Source: Deltaproteobacteria bacterium
Lineage (GTDB): Bacteria > Desulfobacterota > Binatia > UBA12015
Length of the DNA: 64,000 nucleotides
Reading direction: 5' to 3'
Assembly (NCBI GenBank): GCA_016874795.1
Contig: VGTG01000003.1
Span: forward strand, 1 to 64,000
Shown: piece after piece, positions 18,900 to 61,392 of the stretch
Layout: each line of letters opens with the position of its first letter
Position numbering within the stretch: the first letter of the stretch is position 1
Made by a program: the position numbers and the translations under genes
The notes under the pieces: model-generated
The model's input: the letters and a program-made list of their open reading frames with translations, nothing else
What the model was told of the DNA's origin: nothing
Databases searched by the model: none

Positions 18900-21369
<2,470 letters not shown>

Positions 21370-21464
21370 CGGGCTCCGGAAGGCGACGGCAGGACCAGCT
21401 CGAGACCTTCCGTAAGCTCGGTGCGAGACCGGACCACGGAACGCTCTTTTAGGCGCCGCATGGG
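21370..21464 (-). other. Leader region of the kdsB operon
   Basis: These 95 bases precede the 14-gene operon and should contain its promoter. I see no convincing -35/-10 pair. A short open frame crosses it in another phase, with no recognisable protein. It joins the hairpin-repeat array at 21465. Confidence 0.35.
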
Positions 21465-21566
21465 TAGCCTGTCAATTCTCGAGGGGGACCTCGTCCCCCT
21501 CCTTCACGCGGCGAAGCCGCGTGAAGCTTCCTCCCCCTGCGCTCGCCTTTGGCTCGCTGGCTCCAG
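21465..21566. repeat. Two-hairpin repeat, tandem copy 1
   Basis: This unit of about 102 bp starts TAGCCTGTCAATTC. Hairpin H1 (GAGGGGGAC-CTC-GTCCCCCTC, 21481-21501) has a 9-bp stem and 3-base loop. Hairpin H2 (CTTCACGCGGC-GAA-GCCGCGTGAAG, 21502-21526) has an 11-bp stem and a GAA loop. The unit ends with CTCCCCCTGCGCTCGCC and TTTGGCTCGCTGGCTCCA. There is no coding potential. Confidence 0.9.
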
Positions 21567-21667
21567 TAGCCTGTCAATTCCAGAGGGGGACCCGTCCCCC
21601 TCCTTCACGCGGCAAAGCCGCGTGAAGCTTTCTCCCCCTGCGCTCGCCTTTGGCTCGCTGGCTCCAG
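21567..21667. repeat. Two-hairpin repeat, tandem copy 2
   Basis: This copy is nearly identical to copy 1. The H1 loop is shortened to two bases, the H2 loop is AAA instead of GAA, and one C in the tail is T. Both stems remain perfectly paired. Confidence 0.9.
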
Positions 21668-21768
21668 TAGCCTGTCAATTCCAGAGGGGGACCTCGTCCC
21701 CCTCCTTCACGCGGCGAAGCCGCGTGAAGCTTCCTCCCCCTGCGCTCGCCTTTGGCTCGCTGGCTCCA
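21668..21768. repeat. Two-hairpin repeat, tandem copy 3
   Basis: This is the third copy, with the full H1 and the GAA-loop H2 of copy 1. It ends at GGCTCCA, 57 bases before the isomerase gene. The intervening GGTTTAAAC...GATTAAG patch is the most AT-rich part of the region and may hold the promoter of that gene. Confidence 0.9.
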
Positions 21769-21825
21769 TCTGCGTCGGGCGATGGTTTAAACTTCTTGCG
21801 GCTCGATTAAGCTGGAGTCATCTCG

Positions 21826-22995
21826 ATGGCGCCGCACGTGCTCCCGATCCCGTTCGCCGACATCCGGGCGTGGATGTTCGACGAAGCGCTGCCGTTCTGG
21901 GGCACGGCCGGACTCGATCGCGAGCACGGCGGGTTTCTCGAAGAGCTGACGCTCGACGGCGCGGAGACGAACGTCGCGTTCAAGCGCACGCGCGTCACCT
22001 GCAGGCAGATCTACGTGTTCTCGCACGCGGCGCTCCTCGGCTGGAAGCCCGGCGAGGACCTCTCGGCACGCGGCTACGAGGCGCTGACGCGGAAGGCATG
22101 GCTCGGTCCCGACCGCGGCTGGGCGAGGCGGCTCACGCGCGACGGAGGGCTGCTCGACGCGACGCCCGACCTCTACGACCTCGCCTTCGTTCTCTTCGCG
22201 CTCGCGTGGCGCTACAGGCTCTCGGCCGACCCCGACGCGCTCACGCGCTTGCACGCGACGCTCGACTTCATCGAGAAGCACATGCGCCCTGCGGGCGGCG
22301 AGGGCTTCTGGCACGTCCTGCCGTCGCACGGGCCGCGTCTCCAGAACCCGCACATGCATCTCCTCGAGGCGGCGCTCGTCGCGTTCGAGGCGGCCTCCGA
22401 GCAGCGTTTCCTCGATCTGGCGAGCGAGATCGTCGCGCTGTTCCGCCGCCGCTTCTTCGACGGGAGGACTCTCGCCGAGTTCTTCACGGACGACTGGGAC
22501 CGCGTCGCGGGCGCGCATCCGGGGCACCTGATCGAGCCGGGACACCACTTCGAGTGGGCTTGGATCCTCGCGCAGTACCAGCGCCTGACCGGCGCGGACG
22601 TCGCGGCGGAGGCGACGGCGCTCGTCGAGTTCGCCGAGCGCCACGGCGTCGACGCGACGACGCAGCTCGCCTACGACGAGGTGCTCGACGACGGCACGCC
22701 GCTTCGCTCGACCTCGCGCACCTGGCCGAACACGGAGCGCATCAAGGGGCACCTCGCCCTCTTCGAGATCGCCGGGCGTGATCCGCGCGCACCCGTCGCG
22801 AGCGCGACGCACGCGCTCCTCGACTTCCACCTCGCCGTGAAGCCGCGCGGCTCGTGGATCGACCAGTTCGACCCGGGCGGGAAGCCGCTGTCGAAGGTCG
22901 TTCCGACGTCGACGCTCTATCACCTGTTCCTCGCGTTCGCGGAGACGCTCCGCCTGCAGCCGGGCCTCGAGGCTCTCGAAGCGCGCGAGCGCTGA
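21826..22995 (+). CDS. AGE-family sugar isomerase/epimerase (mannose isomerase-like)
   Basis: The 389-residue cytosolic protein is an (alpha/alpha)6-barrel of the N-acylglucosamine 2-epimerase/mannose isomerase superfamily. Seen motifs are the N-terminal RTRVTCRQIYVFSHAALLGW, MHLLEAALVAFEA, PGHHFEWAWILAQY with catalytic-type His, and the C-terminal PTSTLYHLFLAF. Substrate (mannose, mannose-6-phosphate, cellobiose or N-acyl sugars) cannot be read from sequence. The gene stands alone between the repeat array and a 247-base gap. Confidence 0.85.
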   Translation: MAPHVLPIPFADIRAWMFDEALPFWGTAGLDREHGGFLEELTLDGAETNVAFKRTRVTCRQIYVFSHAALLGWKPGEDLSARGYEALTRKAWLGPDRGWARRLTRDGGLLDATPDLYDLAFVLFALAWRYRLSADPDALTRLHATLDFIEKHMRPAGGEGFWHVLPSHGPRLQNPHMHLLEAALVAFEAASEQRFLDLASEIVALFRRRFFDGRTLAEFFTDDWDRVAGAHPGHLIEPGHHFEWAWILAQYQRLTGADVAAEATALVEFAERHGVDATTQLAYDEVLDDGTPLRSTSRTWPNTERIKGHLALFEIAGRDPRAPVASATHALLDFHLAVKPRGSWIDQFDPGGKPLSKVVPTSTLYHLFLAFAETLRLQPGLEALEARER

Positions 22996-27800: not shown

Positions 27801-27880
27801 GCGAGGGGGCGCCGCCCCCTCGCCGAGGCAGCGGCAAAGCCGCTACCTCTCCACTCCCCCGCTCGCCCTCCGCTCGGCCG
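27801..27880. repeat. Diverged copy of the two-hairpin repeat
   Basis: H1 is GCGAGGGGGC-GCC-GCCCCCTCGC (27801-27823, 10-bp stem, 3-base loop). H2 is AGGCAGCGGC-AAA-GCCGCTACCT (27826-27848, one mismatch, AAA loop). The tail CTCCCCCGCTCGCCCTCCG parallels the tail of the copies at 21.5 kb. The stem sequences differ from those copies, yet pairing, loop size and order are kept. It lies between the stop of the NTF2-like gene and the stop of tatD, so it could also terminate both. Confidence 0.75.
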
Positions 27881-27896
27881 CGCGCTGCCCGCGCGG

Positions 27897-28700
27897 TCAC
27901 GGATGGAAGAGCCTCGCGAAGTTCGCACCAATTTGCGCCGCGACTTCCGCGGACGTGACACCCCAGATCTCCGCTGCGTAGGCGGCCGTGCCGGCGACGT
28001 CGGCGGGCTCGCTCGGGCGGTCGCGGTCCGGCCCCAGGTACGGACAGTCGGTCTCGAGGAGGAGCTGATCGCGCGGCAGCGTCTCGAGCATCCGCGTGAA
28101 GCTCTCGGAGCGACGCACGTTCGCCGGGATCGAGAAGTAGTGTCCTTCCTCGGCGATCTGGCGAGCGAGCTTCACCTTGCCGCCGAAGCAGTGCCAGTTG
28201 ACGCGCTTCGCGCCCATGTCGACGAGGATCTCGAACGCACGGCGCTCGCGACGGCGCGAGTGCACGATCACCGGCTTCCCGGCTTCGAGCGCGATCGCGA
28301 CGAGCTCGCGAAACACGCGCTCCTGCGCTTCCCAGAGGGACTCGGGAACCCAGTGGCCGTCGAGCCCGATCTCACCGACGGCGATCGCGTCCGCGACATG
28401 CTCGCGCACCCACGCGATGCCCTCCGCCGACGTGAACTCCTCGCCGTCGCGCGGGTAGTCGACGCCGAGCGCGCGCATCTCGGTGATCACCGCGTCCACG
28501 GGATAGAAACCGAAGGCCGGCTTCACGAGCGGATCACGCGCGGCGAGCGCGCGCACCGCTTCGTTGTCGCGCGGGTTCAGCCCGTTCGCGACGATCGCGT
28601 CGACACCGGCCGCGCGCGCGCGCGCGAGCACGTCGTCTTCCCGCGCGGCGAGACGCGGGTGCGTCAGGTGCGCGTGCACGTCGACGAGGCCCACGACCAC
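27897..28700 (-). CDS. TatD-family metal-dependent hydrolase
   Basis: The 267-residue TIM-barrel protein has the metal ligands HAH in LVDVHAHLTHPR, AVGEIGLDGHW with the Glu, PVIVHSRR, the NWHCFGG histidine, and LLETDCPYL with the Asp. Members are 3'-5' exonucleases or deoxyribonucleases in other bacteria. It starts at GTG. It is convergent with the NTF2-like gene across the repeat element and divergent from the hydratase gene. Confidence 0.88.
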   Translation of the reverse strand: MVVGLVDVHAHLTHPRLAAREDDVLARARAAGVDAIVANGLNPRDNEAVRALAARDPLVKPAFGFYPVDAVITEMRALGVDYPRDGEEFTSAEGIAWVREHVADAIAVGEIGLDGHWVPESLWEAQERVFRELVAIALEAGKPVIVHSRRRERRAFEILVDMGAKRVNWHCFGGKVKLARQIAEEGHYFSIPANVRRSESFTRMLETLPRDQLLLETDCPYLGPDRDRPSEPADVAGTAAYAAEIWGVTSAEVAAQIGANFARLFHP

Positions 28701-29698: not shown

Positions 29699-32668
29699 CT
29701 AACGCTGCGGCAAGCGGATCGGACGGCCGTTTCGCGACGGCGGCGATCCACCCGGCCCGTCGCGCAAGCCGGCGAGCCAGCCGGAGCCACGTCCGCCCGA
29801 GCTCTCGCAGATCTCGGCGCACGAACCGGAGCCGTTGCTCGCTCCCGCGTCGCACTGCTCGTCGTGCTCGACGACGCCGTTGCCGCAGGAGACGGCCCAG
29901 AGCTCGTTCCCGTGCACGCGGTCGTTCGCGATCAGGAAGAGGCGGCCGTCTGCGGAGGCGAGCGTGTTCCCCTGGATCGCCCCGAAGATCCCCTGGAGAG
30001 TCGCCACGGGCCGTGTCCCGTCCGCGCTGCCATCGCTGACGTACAGCGCATCGCCTTCGGACGTAACTGCGGTGAAGTAGAGCCGCCCGTCGAGAGCGGT
30101 GAGGCCGGAAGTCCGCTGCACGTCGGGATCGAAGACGCGGCGCGTGCCGGCGTCGGTCCCATCCGAGCGCCAGAGAACGTCCTTCGTCGTGAAGCCGTTC
30201 GGGAAGATCTGGTCGGGCTCCTCGACGAAGAAGTAGACCACACCGTGGAGCGAGACGAAGCCGGGGTCGAAGGTGAGGGGCTGCACGAAGGACTCGATCC
30301 GACGAGTTCCGGCGGACGTGCCGTCGCTCACTCAGAGCTCGTCGGTATCGTGGGATTCAGCCCCCGCGCTCGAGAAGAGCACGCGATCCCGCGAGAGCGG
30401 AGCGATCCGGATGGCATCACCGAACGGGATCCCGTCCCCTGGGCCGAGGTCGACCACCATGAAGGTGCCCGCCTCGGTCCCGTCGCTTCGCCAGAGCTCG
30501 CGGCCGTTCACGCCGTCATCGGCGGTGAAGAAGAGCAACGAGCCCGACGCCGTCTGATGCGACTCGTACAGATCGAGCGACTCCCCTCGGCCGGGGCGGA
30601 TGTCGCGCACGAGGTGAGTTCCCGCGGCGGTCCCGTCGGTTGCCCAGAGCTCGTAGCCGTGATCGGGGTCGGCCGCGGCGAAGAAGAGGGTGTTGCCGAC
30701 GGACCCGATGATCCGCGGGTTGGAGGACGCGCCGCCCGGCACGATGTCCGCGACGAGCGTCGTCGTCGTGCCGTCGGTCTTCCAGAGCTCGGAGCCGACG
30801 CTCGTGGTCGTCCCCGGGACGACGTACACCGTGTCTCCGACGGCGGCGATCTGCGCATAGCCGTGCGTGGTCGAGCCGAAGTCGTGCACGAGCACGACTC
30901 CGGTGGCGTTTCCGTTCGTCCGCCAGAGCTCCGAGTCGCTCGAAAGGAAGAAGACGCTGCCCCGCGCCGCGGCGAGTCGCTGCTGCCCGAGAGGGTCGAA
31001 ATTGAGGGGGTCGACCTCGACGGCATCGAGACCCGGCACGATTCCCGTCCCGGCCGCCGTGCCGTCGCTCCGGTAGAGGCGCGTCGCTTCACCGAGGTCC
31101 GGATCGCCGAAGTAGAAGACCTGGTCGCCGAGAGGAACGAGCGGGCCATAGGTGTCGTAGTAGTTGAAGAAGTCGGCCGTCCCCCGGAACAGGTCGGCGA
31201 GCATCGCCGTCCCGGCGGCAGTACCGTCGGTCGCCCAGAGCTCCTGGCCGTGCTGTCGATCGTTGGCCGTGAAGAGCAGACGATTGCCGAGAGCGGTGAG
31301 ATGCTGCGGGCTGCTGCCGTGGCCGGGCACGATGTCGGCGACACGGCGCGTCCCCGCGACCGTCCCGTCGGTGACCCAGACCTCCTCGTCGTGCCCCGGC
31401 TCGCGCGCGACGAAGAACACGCGGTTGCCGACGACCGTGAGCTGACCGACGACGTGGCCGGGCGCGCAGGCCTCGATGTGGGTGTCGCGCAGCATCACCG
31501 TCCCGGCAGGCGTCCCATCCGTCACCCAAAGCTCGTGGTTCTTGTCGTAGTTCGAAGCGGAGGAGGCGACGAAGTAGAGCCGTCCGCCCACTTCGACGAG
31601 CGGATCGTGCCGGCGGGTGCCGCTCTCGGTGAGGCGGAACGTACCGGCATCGGTTCCGTCCGTCGTCCAGAGCTCCGGTGCGGCCGGCGCGAGCACGTCG
31701 AGATTCGAGACGGCGAAGACGACGCGGCCGTTGAAGACCGTGCGGGGATAGACGCCGCCGCTTCCCGGGCCGGGGAGATGATCGCGCACGAGGACGGTTC
31801 CGGCCGCCGTGCCGTCGCTCCGCCAGAGCTCGGCTCCGTGCACGCCGTCGTCCGCTTCGAAGTACACGCGACCGTCGAGCTCCACGAACGGCATCCGGGG
31901 AAATCTTCCTTGACCGGGAAGCCGCTCGGAATCGAGCGCTCCGTCGGGACCCGGGAGGATGTCGAGGGCGAGACGCGTTCCCGCGGCGGTGCCGTCGGAG
32001 ACCCAGAGCTCCGGACCGTGTGCGCCGTCGTCGGCGCGGAAGAAGATCCGATCGTCCGAAGCGGTGAGCTGGCTCGGTTCGGAGGGTTCGAGGCCGGGCC
32101 GGATGTCCGCGACGCGCCTCGTTCCGCCGCGCGTGCCGTCGGTCCGCCAGAGCTCGCGACCGTGCTCCGCATCGCCCGCGGCGAAGTAGAGGACTCCGCC
32201 CGCGACGGCGAAGTTGCGCGGATTCGACCCGATCTCGCCGCGGCGGAGGTCGCCGACGAGCCAGGTGCCTCCTGTGGTGCCGTCGCTCCGCCAGAGCTCC
32301 TCTCCGTGCCCGCCGTCGTCCGCCGAGAAGTAGAGGATGCCGTTCACGTCGAATGGCTTGGACGGGAACGAGCTCCCCGCGCCGGGGTGGATGTCCTTCA
32401 CCAGCCGCGTCCCCGCGGAGGTACCGTCGCTCGCCCAGAGCTCCTGTCCGAGCTCGGCCGTGCGGCCGACGAAGTAGACGAGGTTGCCCGAGCGCGCGAG
32501 CCGGGAAGCACCCGGCCGGTAGTCGACGTCGAGCGGCGTCGTGTTCTGGTCGGCGACGAGCTCGATCGAGCCTCGTGCGGAGGCTTCATGCGGAAGGAGA
32601 GCGCCGAGGGCGCTCGCGACGACGAGGGTGCACGCAAGGCGGGCGCTCCTCCGATGAGCGAAGGACAT
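29699..32668 (-). pseudogene. ELWxxDGT-repeat secreted protein, interrupted by one in-frame TGA
   Basis: From the ATG at 32668 (GGAG seven bases upstream) a signal peptide (residues 1-32) leads into about 14 repeats of the form ELWxxDGTxAGTxLVxDIxPG. At 30334-30332 the repeat reads EL-stop-VSDGT, and the same frame then stays open for 209 codons to 29699 with three more repeats. The stop therefore replaces a conserved TGG by TGA. The C-terminus has CGNGVVEHDEQCDAG and two further Cys, resembling the myxobacterial disulfide-rich repeat. The 778-residue upstream part alone could still be exported. Function is unknown; such propeller-like repeats are usually surface proteins. Confidence 0.8.
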
Positions 32669-40074: not shown

Positions 40075-41477
40075 ATGAAGGAGCTGCTCTACCGTCCGCT
40101 GACCGAAGTGACCACGCGCTTCGCCCGGAAGGAGATCTCGCCCGTCGAGCTCATGCGCACGACGCTCGAGCGCATCCGCGAGACGCAGCCGACGCTGAAC
40201 GCGTTCTGCCAGATCGGCAACGACGACGATCTCCTCGAGGCGGCGCGCGCCGCGGAGAAGAGGATCGGCGCCGGCGCAGGGCGTCCTCTCGAGGGCATCC
40301 CGCTCGGCGTGAAGGAGCTCGAGGACGCGCACGGCTTCCGCTCGACGCACGCTTCGGTCCCGTTCAAGGACGACTGGGCGGAGCACGACTCGGCGCAGGT
40401 CGAGCGCTTGAAGGCCGCGGGCGCGATCGTCGTCGGCAAGACGAACGCCCCGGAGTTCGGCTACACCGCGCTCAGCAAGAACCTCCTCTTCGGCGTGAGC
40501 CGGAGCCCGTGGAACGTCGAACGCACGCCCGGCGGGTCGAGCGGCGGCTCCTCCGCGGCGATCTCGGGCGGCGTCGTCACGCTCGCGACCGCGAGCGACG
40601 GCGGCGGGTCGTGCGCATCCCCGCTTCGTTCACGGGCTGCTTCGGGCTGAAGGTGAGCTACGGACGGATCCCGCACGGTCCCGATCCGCTCTGGATCATG
40701 GACGACACCGCGGTGCACGGTCCGCTGACGCGCACGGTCGAGGACGCGGCGCTGCACATGGACATGGTCGTCGGACCGCATCCGCTCGATCCGAACTCGC
40801 TGCCGCATCCCGGCATCTCCTACCGCGACACGCTGCGCGATCTGCCGCGCGGCCTTCGGATCGGGTACTCCCCGGATCTCGGCTACGCCGTCGTGCAGTC
40901 GGACGTCGCGACGGTGGCCGCGAAGGCGGCGCAGGCGTTCGCCGAGATGGGGCATTCCGTCGACGAGATCTCCGATGGCCCGCCCGAGCCCGGCCTCGAC
41001 TGGGGGCTCCTCGGCGCCTTCGAGATGCTCTCGCGGCTCGATCCGCTCCTGCCCGAGCGCGAAGCGGACTTCGGACGCGGCTTCATCCAGGGCGTCAAGG
41101 CGGGCGCGCGCATGACGCCGGGATTCTGGGGCGAAATGCGAAAGCGGCGCGAGGAGCTCAACCGATGGTGCGGCCGCGTGTTCTCGCAGTTCGACTTGCT
41201 CTTGACGCCGACGGTGCCCTTCGACGCGCCGCCGGCGCGCGGGCCGTTCCCGCCGGAGACCGAGGGGCGGAAGCAGCCGCGCGCGACGGTCGGGAGCTTC
41301 ACGATGCCCTTCAACATGTCGTGGCATCCCGCGGGGACGGTTCGAGCGGGGCTGTCGAAGGCCGGGCTGCCGGTGGGGCTGCAGATCGTGGCGCCGCGGC
41401 ATCGGGATGATTTGGTGCTGCAGGCGGCGTGGGCGTTCGAGCAGGCGCGGCCGTGGGGGGAGTGGCCGCGGGTGTGA
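40075..41477 (+). pseudogene. Amidase (amidase signature family), one-base frameshift
   Basis: The gene starts at ATG 40075 with GGAGG upstream. The first 179 codons contain the catalytic Lys (GIPLGVKELEDAHG) and cis-Ser region (GGSSGGSSAA). At 40611 the frame ends in nonsense (stop 40648-40650), while the frame beginning with VRIPASFTGCFGLKVSYGRI continues the family sequence to 41477. Restoring one G (TCG-GTG) joins them exactly within the nucleophile motif D-G-G-G-S-V-R-I-P. The loss falls at the catalytic serine, so the protein is inactive unless this is a sequencing error. Full length would be about 467 residues, normal for an amidase. Confidence 0.88.
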
Positions 41478-41493
41478 GCGCGGGGACGCAGGC

Positions 41494-41747
41494 GAGCGCG
41501 GAACGCACCTCGCGCGGCGTGCGAAGGACGCGCAGGTGATGGCGGCCGTCGAGTACCGCACCACGGAGTCGGAAGACACGGTTCACCGCGCGAGCGAGCC
41601 TCGCACCGATCGACTTCATGCCCCGGGCGAGAGCGCTCCTGCTCTCCGCTTCGACGAGCAGGTGCACGTGGTCGCGCTGCAGGGAGTAGTGCAAAACGCG
41701 AAAGTCGCCGCGCTCGCACGCAACCACGCACTCGCAGAAGCGTCAAG
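41494..41747 (-). pseudogene. REP-associated tyrosine transposase (Y1/RAYT) remnant
   Basis: The minus-strand frame reads FRVLHYSLQRDHVHLLVEAE, then RGMKSIGARLARAVNRVF and LRTPREVRSAL, the core of IS200-like Y1 transposases of the RAYT group, with the His-x-His in HVHLLVE. The N-terminal strand is missing (a TGA lies upstream) and the C-terminal helix with the catalytic Tyr is lost into the 3' end of the amidase gene, so it is inactive. Confidence 0.8.
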
Positions 41748-60864: not shown

Positions 60865-61392
60865 GCATCAAGTATAGAAAGGAGTGTTCGGAGGAGAGAA
60901 ACGACCTCCACGATCGCTCTCAGAGGGCCGATCTCGAACGGACCCATACCTCGGGTACCCCGGAGAGGTTTCCGCGGCACACTCGGCGTCGATCGATGGC
61001 GACGAAGTAACGAGAGACGATCCCTGTGAGAAAGCCAGAACAGAACCGCCCCGTCCGGGTGACTGCGTGCTGCGCTCGTGTCCACCCTGGAGTTTGCGCT
61101 CCTGGGCAAGCCCGCGGCCGAGACGGGGTGGTGAGGAGGCGCAGCTCAGGCTTTGCCGCGTGGAGGAGAGGGGCGGCGCCCCTCTCTACGAATGGGCCGG
61201 GCGGGGGGGCCGGCAGGGGAGAGGAGGAACCCCACCGGCCACACCCGCCGACCCTGGACGGCCCGCCGTGAAATGCGGCCAGATACGGTCACGGCGATCG
61301 GAGGGGGTGGCGTTCGCCCATCCACTACCGGGATTTCCGTACCCGTCCAATTCGACGGGTCGCCCATCCCTAATATTCGATCACCGCACGGC
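60865..61392. other. Non-coding region after the IS110 remnant
   Basis: I see no supported gene in these 528 bases. GAGAGGGGC-GGC-GCCCCTCTC (61166-61186) is a perfect 9-bp stem with a 3-base loop, like H1 of the two-hairpin repeat, but no H2 follows. A G-run rich patch lies at about 61197-61215. Part may be the old 3' flank of the IS element, and the end may hold the terminator of the pilY1 operon. Confidence 0.5.

Follow-up and report, generated by a model that had tools for sequence, protein, structure and literature searches.

The window (the whole stretch of 64,000 nucleotides analysed) carries a tandem array on the plus strand at positions 21464 to 21768, in which three copies of one element follow each other, each with hairpin H1 first. 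TRF reported it as a single array (period 101, 3.0 copies, 96% matches), and matches to the covariance model described below lie at 21480, 21582, and 21683. To the left of the array, the minus strand carries a kdsB-type gene (longest open reading frame starting at 21369; TIGR00466 above cut-off), after which pyrG, kdsA, and KpsF/GutQ-family genes come leftwards. To the right, a GlcNAc_2-epim gene (PF07221) runs on the plus strand from 21826. The earlier note had described three tandem two-hairpin units of about 101 bp between divergent genes, and both parts of this description hold: TRF gives three units of 101 to 102 bp, and the minus-strand kdsB-type gene and the plus-strand GlcNAc_2-epim gene point away from each other.

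Unit 1 begins with the flank GTAGCCTGTCAATT (21464 to 21477), which recurs at 21566 to 21579 and 21667 to 21680. Folding and sequence place H1, a 9-bp stem with a 3-nt loop, at 21481 to 21501 and H2, an 11-bp stem with a GAA loop, at 21502 to 21526. Next come the linker CTTCCTCCCCCT (21527 to 21538), which is the mirror of 21494 to 21505 and a putative third strand with 12/12 facing letters, and the 3′ part GCGCTCGCCTTTGGCTCGCTGGCTCCA (21539 to 21565), standing where a third hairpin, H3, is usual. By sequence, unit 2 has H1 with a 2-nt loop at 21583 to 21602, H2 with an AAA loop at 21603 to 21627, and a linker with 11/12 facing letters at 21628 to 21639. In unit 3, H1, H2, and the linker (12/12 facing letters) are at 21684 to 21704, 21705 to 21729, and 21730 to 21741, respectively. 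All of these features are given on the plus strand.

H1 had been described as a G5/C5 hairpin; the hairpin is there, but it is longer than that, with 9 bp (GAGGGGGAC/GTCCCCCTC) around a loop of 2 to 3 nt. The 11-bp hairpin with a GAA or AAA loop was recovered as H2 by both folding and sequence. The pyrimidine tail was also recovered, as CTT[C/T]CTCCCCCT, in which one letter varies. The stems are the same in all units, in agreement with the description of perfect stems with variable loops and tail; besides the loops and one linker letter, the units also differ in the flank left of H1. GTAG stands 13 nt 5′ of H1 in the array units, and their 3′ part is unlike the general family plan. RNA folding of single units gave z scores of -3.9 to -5.1 against 200 dinucleotide shuffles (three units on the plus strand and two on the minus strand), and unit 1 folded as DNA gave -5.4 on the plus strand and -4.0 on the minus strand. 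The single Rfam match at an E value of ≤1 between 20900 and 22300 was below the gathering score and outside the array.

A dispersed family of elements

The earlier note had taken a lack of other copies in the genome, together with a lack of transcription or conservation, as grounds for rejecting the unit; a genome-wide search found many copies, and related ones occur in other genomes. BLAST with the array as the query returned 31 matches in its own genome (G000), the array counted. The core pattern occurs there 33 times exactly and 69 times with at most one mismatch, compared to 25 times for the reversed pattern. A covariance model built from 19 copies gave at least 127 matches at an E value of ≤0.01 among the 150 candidates scored. 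Within the window, a further copy lies between convergent SnoaL-like and TatD genes at 27801 to 27904 (plus strand; 50.2 bits), and a degenerate copy with an altered H2 3′ arm lies at 61093 to 61187 (minus strand; 43 bits). A weak match at 32529 to 32618 (minus strand; 25 bits; E value, 0.0019) is possibly a decayed copy. It is near certain that the element is a dispersed family and that the array is one tandem cluster of it.

Six of the 39 genomes searched with the model, its own included, carry matches. Scoring covered no more than 103 candidates in any one genome. There were at least 98, 81, and 6 matches in G006, G010, and G005, which belong to the same family, and at least 24 and 33 in G025 and G032, which belong to a different family within the class, whereas three congeners had 0. 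Across the class, 7 of 148 genomes (again including its own) match at an E value of ≤1e-4, the seventh carrier being G091. When the collection of named genomes was scanned with a pattern, 22 stretches were obtained, 21 of them in MAGs titled Candidatus Binatia or Deltaproteobacteria. The remaining one, on the "Chloroflexi" contig L259, is probably misbinned, because most of this contig has 97 to 100% identity to contigs from G025. No description of the family was found in the titles and abstract openings of the literature on Binatia, on REP/RAYT systems, and on mirror and triplex repeats.

On the plus strand, the family plan consists of a short A/T-rich flank, H1, an abutting H2, a 12-nt pyrimidine linker, GCTCGCT..CGCTCGG, and usually H3. 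Family examples are GAGAGGGGC gcc GCCCCTCTC for H1, CTCCACGCGGC AAA GCCGCGCGGAG for H2, and CCGCGCGC..GCGCGCGG for H3. All three stems covary. In alignment A3, the one used here, which was fitted to the model and therefore favors pairing (115 distinct copies of 116), two-sided changes were present in 26 of the 28 stem pairs, and 93.6% of stem cells were paired, compared to 33 to 65% with the partners slid. Non-Watson-Crick stem pairs on the plus strand comprised 48 A·C, 4 G·T, and 32 others, and the mismatches fell into 13 distinct A·C contexts versus 3 for G·T when counted by eye. This excess of A·C means that the minus strand keeps wobble pairs and is the better folder.

The H2 3′ arm is changed in at least 21 of the 78 copies inspected in its own genome. 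In one subgroup (L117, L118, L121, L127, L084, and others), this arm is GCCTGAGCTGCGCC, GCCTAAGCTGCGCC, or similar; the H2 foot is broken, and the linker is retained. Other tandem arrays, with units of 121 to 148 bp, were seen at L009 (G000 C54 1-260), L173, L182, and L081. The unit of L009 takes in host DNA around a start codon, indicating that arrays arise repeatedly.

Mobility and a candidate mobilizer

In the congener G002, the SnoaL-like and TatD genes are adjacent without the copy found at 27801, giving an empty syntenic site. The search for such sites covered four genomes, and G002 provided the single filled/empty pair, with both flanks on one contig. G001 has the flanks on two contigs, whose ends lie within or close to a different inverted repeat. 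Beside TatD in G003, the SnoaL-like gene was without a match, and the G005 pieces are at different places. The epimerase protein had no matches in G001 to G003, so the array's own site gave no empty-site comparison. From the empty site in G002 and the zero matches in three congeners, we infer that the element probably spreads as non-autonomous mobile DNA. Insertions would settle beside stop codons, where they do the least harm, and tandem arrays such as that at 21464 to 21768 would result from recombination or slippage. Neither terminal inverted repeats nor a target site duplication was noticed by eye in the inspected copies and the one empty site. At the G001 site orthologous to 27801 (the end of L270, and L267), a different inverted repeat, GTTGGTTAGTCTCGCCCTTTTT..., stands at the same gene pair. 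This gives the impression that repeats of unrelated kinds have gene 3′ ends in common as a place to land.

One known counterpart is the REP/BIME/REPIN elements with their RAYT (TnpA_REP) enzymes. The element could be an ordinary REP-like repeat, moved by a RAYT-type Y1 transposase that recognizes its hairpins, with the mirror relation described below having no structural role. Its high copy number, its hairpins, and its location after genes are as for REPs in the available text of PMC3733652, and the family is mostly extragenic (11 of 133 loci overlap a called gene). Y1 relatives, fragments included, number 18 in G000, 24 in G025, 13 in G032, and 12 in G091, which are four of the seven carriers, compared to at most 8 in 21 noncarriers. 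The Y1 protein that was tested is RAYT-like, with a match to REP_Tyr_transpos below the NCBIfam cut-off. However, G005 has 2 Y1 relatives, and G006 and G010 have none despite their at least 98 and 81 element matches. Of 30 Y1 hits, 20 loci were examined, each about 3 kb long or shorter; they came from 6 genomes, 16 being from carriers, and none held an element copy. The REP tag is not a general feature either: within 12 nt on the 5′ side of H1, the side examined, GTAG occurred in 4 of 140 rows against 4 in the control, and CGTC occurred in 11 against 17, the array units having their GTAG at 13 nt. Membership in REP/RAYT was rejected, as both the tag test and the flanking test failed. The element further differs in having three hairpins and a mirror-coupled linker, and a REP-like origin would leave that coupling unexplained. 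We therefore consider this explanation unlikely.

For non-autonomous mobile DNA of the kind we prefer, the fold would mark the element for an HUH/Y1-type enzyme working on single strands, which is a weaker step in the argument. Y1-driven mobility is a tentative proposal, and the link between element and enzyme is suggestive only. A truncated Y1 gene (IS200-like, RAYT-type) lies in the window at 41311 to 41727 on the minus strand; full-length relatives of it are scattered over this genome as single-gene copies. Diverged Y1 paralogues have an upstream block in common (L224, L228, L231, L234, and L237), which contains ATTCA as a motif together with a promoter-like stretch of the TTGAC type; no element stands beside these paralogues.

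Placement at gene 3′ ends

Genes around the elements were called with a simple home-made caller. Of 133 loci, a few of which overlap each other, 12 have no gene on one side and 11 overlap a called gene. The 110 loci flanked by called genes comprise 50 between convergent genes, 58 between co-directional genes (29 in each orientation), and 2 between divergent genes, one of which is the array. Element-free gene pairs in the window comprise 7 convergent, 40 co-directional, and 7 divergent pairs, and the convergent-versus-divergent comparison between the two sets gives a Fisher P value of 1.3e-4. At 79 loci a gene ends at H1; the gap there has a median of 4 nt and is 0 to 5 nt in 41 cases. CTAG and TTGA precede H1 in 18 and 19 of 140 rows, respectively, compared to 0 and 0 in the controls, and many of these instances overlap stop codons in the inspected copies. 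The family is thus placed at the 3′ ends of genes and is indifferent to the direction of transcription, as the two co-directional orientations are equally frequent.

This placement would also suit a 3′-end RNA element, such as a bidirectional terminator or an mRNA stabilizer between convergent genes, and the stem mismatches that favor wobble pairs on one strand fit it as well. Several observations argue otherwise. A search for intrinsic terminators (a GC stem and then a T tract), confined to the array region at 21300 to 21900, gave 0 sites, so that a T tract after the hairpins is absent there. The co-directional orientations are equal, and a mirror-coupled linker is needless for an RNA hairpin, although a pyrimidine-motif RNA triplex would need one. 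An RNA element of this kind is decidedly unlikely. A leader RNA regulating the Kdo operon, in whose leader region the earlier note placed the array and which the position of the array about 95 bp upstream of the kdsB-type open reading frame might suggest, is scarcely credible and was dropped, because numerous copies adjoin other genes and divergent placement is very rare.

Mirror coupling and the putative triplex

The linker mirrors the 3′ arm of H1 together with the four letters that open H2, which makes a 12-bp polypyrimidine mirror repeat; the earlier note does not mention this relation between tail and stems. Equivalently, it is parallel-complementary to the H2 3′ foot plus the H1 5′ arm, at 12/12, 11/12, and 12/12 letters in the array units. 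The mirror halves in the array are separated by a 21-bp spacer that is mostly hairpin, and the left half doubles as an arm of a perfect hairpin.

The arm/linker set was drawn from 194 aligned matches, which gave 164 distinct sequences, 12 of them not parsed. Over 13 shifts, the 93 distinct arm/linker pairs had a z score of 4.8 for parallel complementarity, which 0 of 1,000 shuffles reached, compared to 0.9 for antiparallel pairing (reached by 230 of 1,000) and -2.1 for direct identity. With 4 parallel registers, the z score was 7.0. Reducing the set to one pair per arm (41 pairs) gave 4.4 with 13 shifts and 6.0 with 4 registers, against -0.25 for antiparallel pairing. Antiparallel pairing of the linker and H1, giving no signal against shuffles, was rejected. 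The odds ratio was 14.8 for parallel and 1.18 for antiparallel pairing, with registers taken from our own subtype rules and pairs that are non-independent, so that the case relies instead on the diagonal, column, and tree analyses that follow. Without any choice of register, the four strongest arm/linker column pairs fell on one parallel diagonal, i with i+50, in both alignments. The mean excess on this diagonal was 0.177 and 0.166, compared to 0.046 and 0.033 on the next parallel diagonal and 0.098 and 0.088 on the best antiparallel one.

In 151 elements, 8 of the 12 mirror columns beat all 2,000 shuffles; the remaining four, in which both sides are mostly C, were reached by 4, 15, 228, and 594 of them. 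Just outside the mirror, the adjoining column pair 27/47 was uncoupled, and the pair beyond it, 28/46, was weakly coupled (33 of 2,000). Changes were also placed on a tree of 143 elements, built without H1, the H2 5′ foot, and the linker but with the H2 3′ foot left in. In the mirror register, 53 of 89 double-change branches on this tree went to identical letters, a count to be read with the poor resolution of element trees and the chance that several columns change on one branch. The 16 other mirror sums, which have 4 to 11 column pairs against 12, gave 0 to 8 same-letter co-changes. Direct offsets gave at most 27 (offset 34), and 5,000 permuted pairings of the mirror columns gave a mean of 9.3 and a maximum of 40. 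Variant pairs include GGAAAGGGG/CCTTTCCCC, GAGGAGA/CTCCTCT, and GAGGGA/CTCCCT, and the pair AAGGGGG/TTCCCCC in L168, missed by the automatic fit, was read from the sequence. Linkers are often imperfect, with CTCACCCC facing GAGAGGGG being common.

Since C and T alone alternate across much of the mirror, four of its columns are matched by some shuffles, and one direct offset yields 27 co-changes, the relation might be thought a by-product of low-complexity pyrimidines and a few old subtypes. This is very improbable given the 53 co-changes against the few in other mirror registers (those with fewer column pairs), the flat antiparallel control, and the choice of the same diagonal by both alignments. 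The comparison of sequences argues strongly that the mirror halves evolve together letter by letter.

We are aware of neither a copying process nor a dimeric protein by which symmetry of the mirror kind, as opposed to the inverted or direct kind, would arise. The known reason for mirror symmetry is the formation of triple helices, for which PMC4666352 gives the background. As the known cause, it is what the mirror coupling points to, and it is probably why the mirror repeat is kept. In one form, the linker would be the third strand and would occupy the major groove of the duplex of H1 and the H2 foot, making an intrastrand triplex with H2 as its loop. The order would be purine, pyrimidine, Hoogsteen on the plus strand (class III) and reverse-Hoogsteen, purine, pyrimidine on the minus strand (class I). 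In a second form, the double strand would form H-DNA with H2 extruded from the spacer.

Linker position 50 follows the 5′ letter of H2 (0.919) better than the complement of the 3′ letter (0.769), because the linker is retained in copies whose H2 3′ arm is altered. This retention despite a changed H2 3′ foot leans towards H-DNA, or else towards simple inheritance. From geometry, the four foot triplets would be hard to build in one strand, because there are zero nucleotides between H2 and the linker. The A/T tolerance of the purine motif was absent, with A facing A in 11.6% of cases compared to 17.6% in shuffles, and A/T equivalence facing A was discarded as a sign of that motif. The fold may act in DNA rather than in RNA, a weaker point, and the wobble pairs of the minus strand would be expected of an RNA too.

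Among known repeats, the family resembles BoxC/PIT (TM_ECO) of Escherichia coli and other bacteria, which in PMC4666352 is a dispersed, GC-rich intergenic repeat in which a single strand carries purine, pyrimidine, and (reverse-)Hoogsteen blocks. The array units likewise have three triplet-capable blocks on one strand, with the facing letters given above. In contrast, BoxC is described there as 34 to 37 nt long and of class II with short loops, whereas the element is about 100 bp long, of putative class III on the plus strand and class I on the minus strand. Its second loop is a whole hairpin, H2, of 25 nt, outside the 1 to 6 nt given for ITxF loops in the same text, and a third hairpin follows. 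The element stands next to stop codons, while TM_ECO is described as having no set distance to genes. The same text reports that BoxC folds into a triplex in vitro, that footprinting in cells suggests little or brief formation, and that earlier tests for effects in vivo were negative; a connection of the motif with genome rearrangement is drawn by its authors. Neither "covari" nor "compensatory" occurs as a word in PMC4666352. With H-DNA, the element shares the 12-bp pyrimidine mirror repeat, here coupled letter by letter; it differs in its mostly hairpin 21-bp spacer and in the double use of the left half as a perfect-hairpin arm.

On balance, we favor the account of a short, noncoding, non-autonomous mobile Binatia element with a putative triplex-forming core, amplified in tandem to give the array. 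More doubtful is that the mobile family is recognized via the predicted triple helix, with base triples under compensatory selection and a coaxial or H-DNA fold of about 12 triplets (H1, H2, and linker) read by a single-strand transposase. What appears new here is the mirror-coupled linker in a bacterial repeat, which would make the family a repeat of the intrastrand-triplex/H-DNA kind. Intrastrand triplex repeats in bacteria are presented in the available text of PMC4666352 as an open puzzle, on which the family bears. The family has many diverged subtypes, across which the putative third strand follows the duplex letter by letter; this would be evolutionary evidence that the triplex itself matters and, if true, would support the existence of a DNA triplex in living bacteria by comparison (covariation). 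The family also offers matched natural mutants, namely, GAGAGGGG/CTCTCCCC, GAGGAGA/CTCCTCT, and GGAAAGGGG/CCTTTCCCC.
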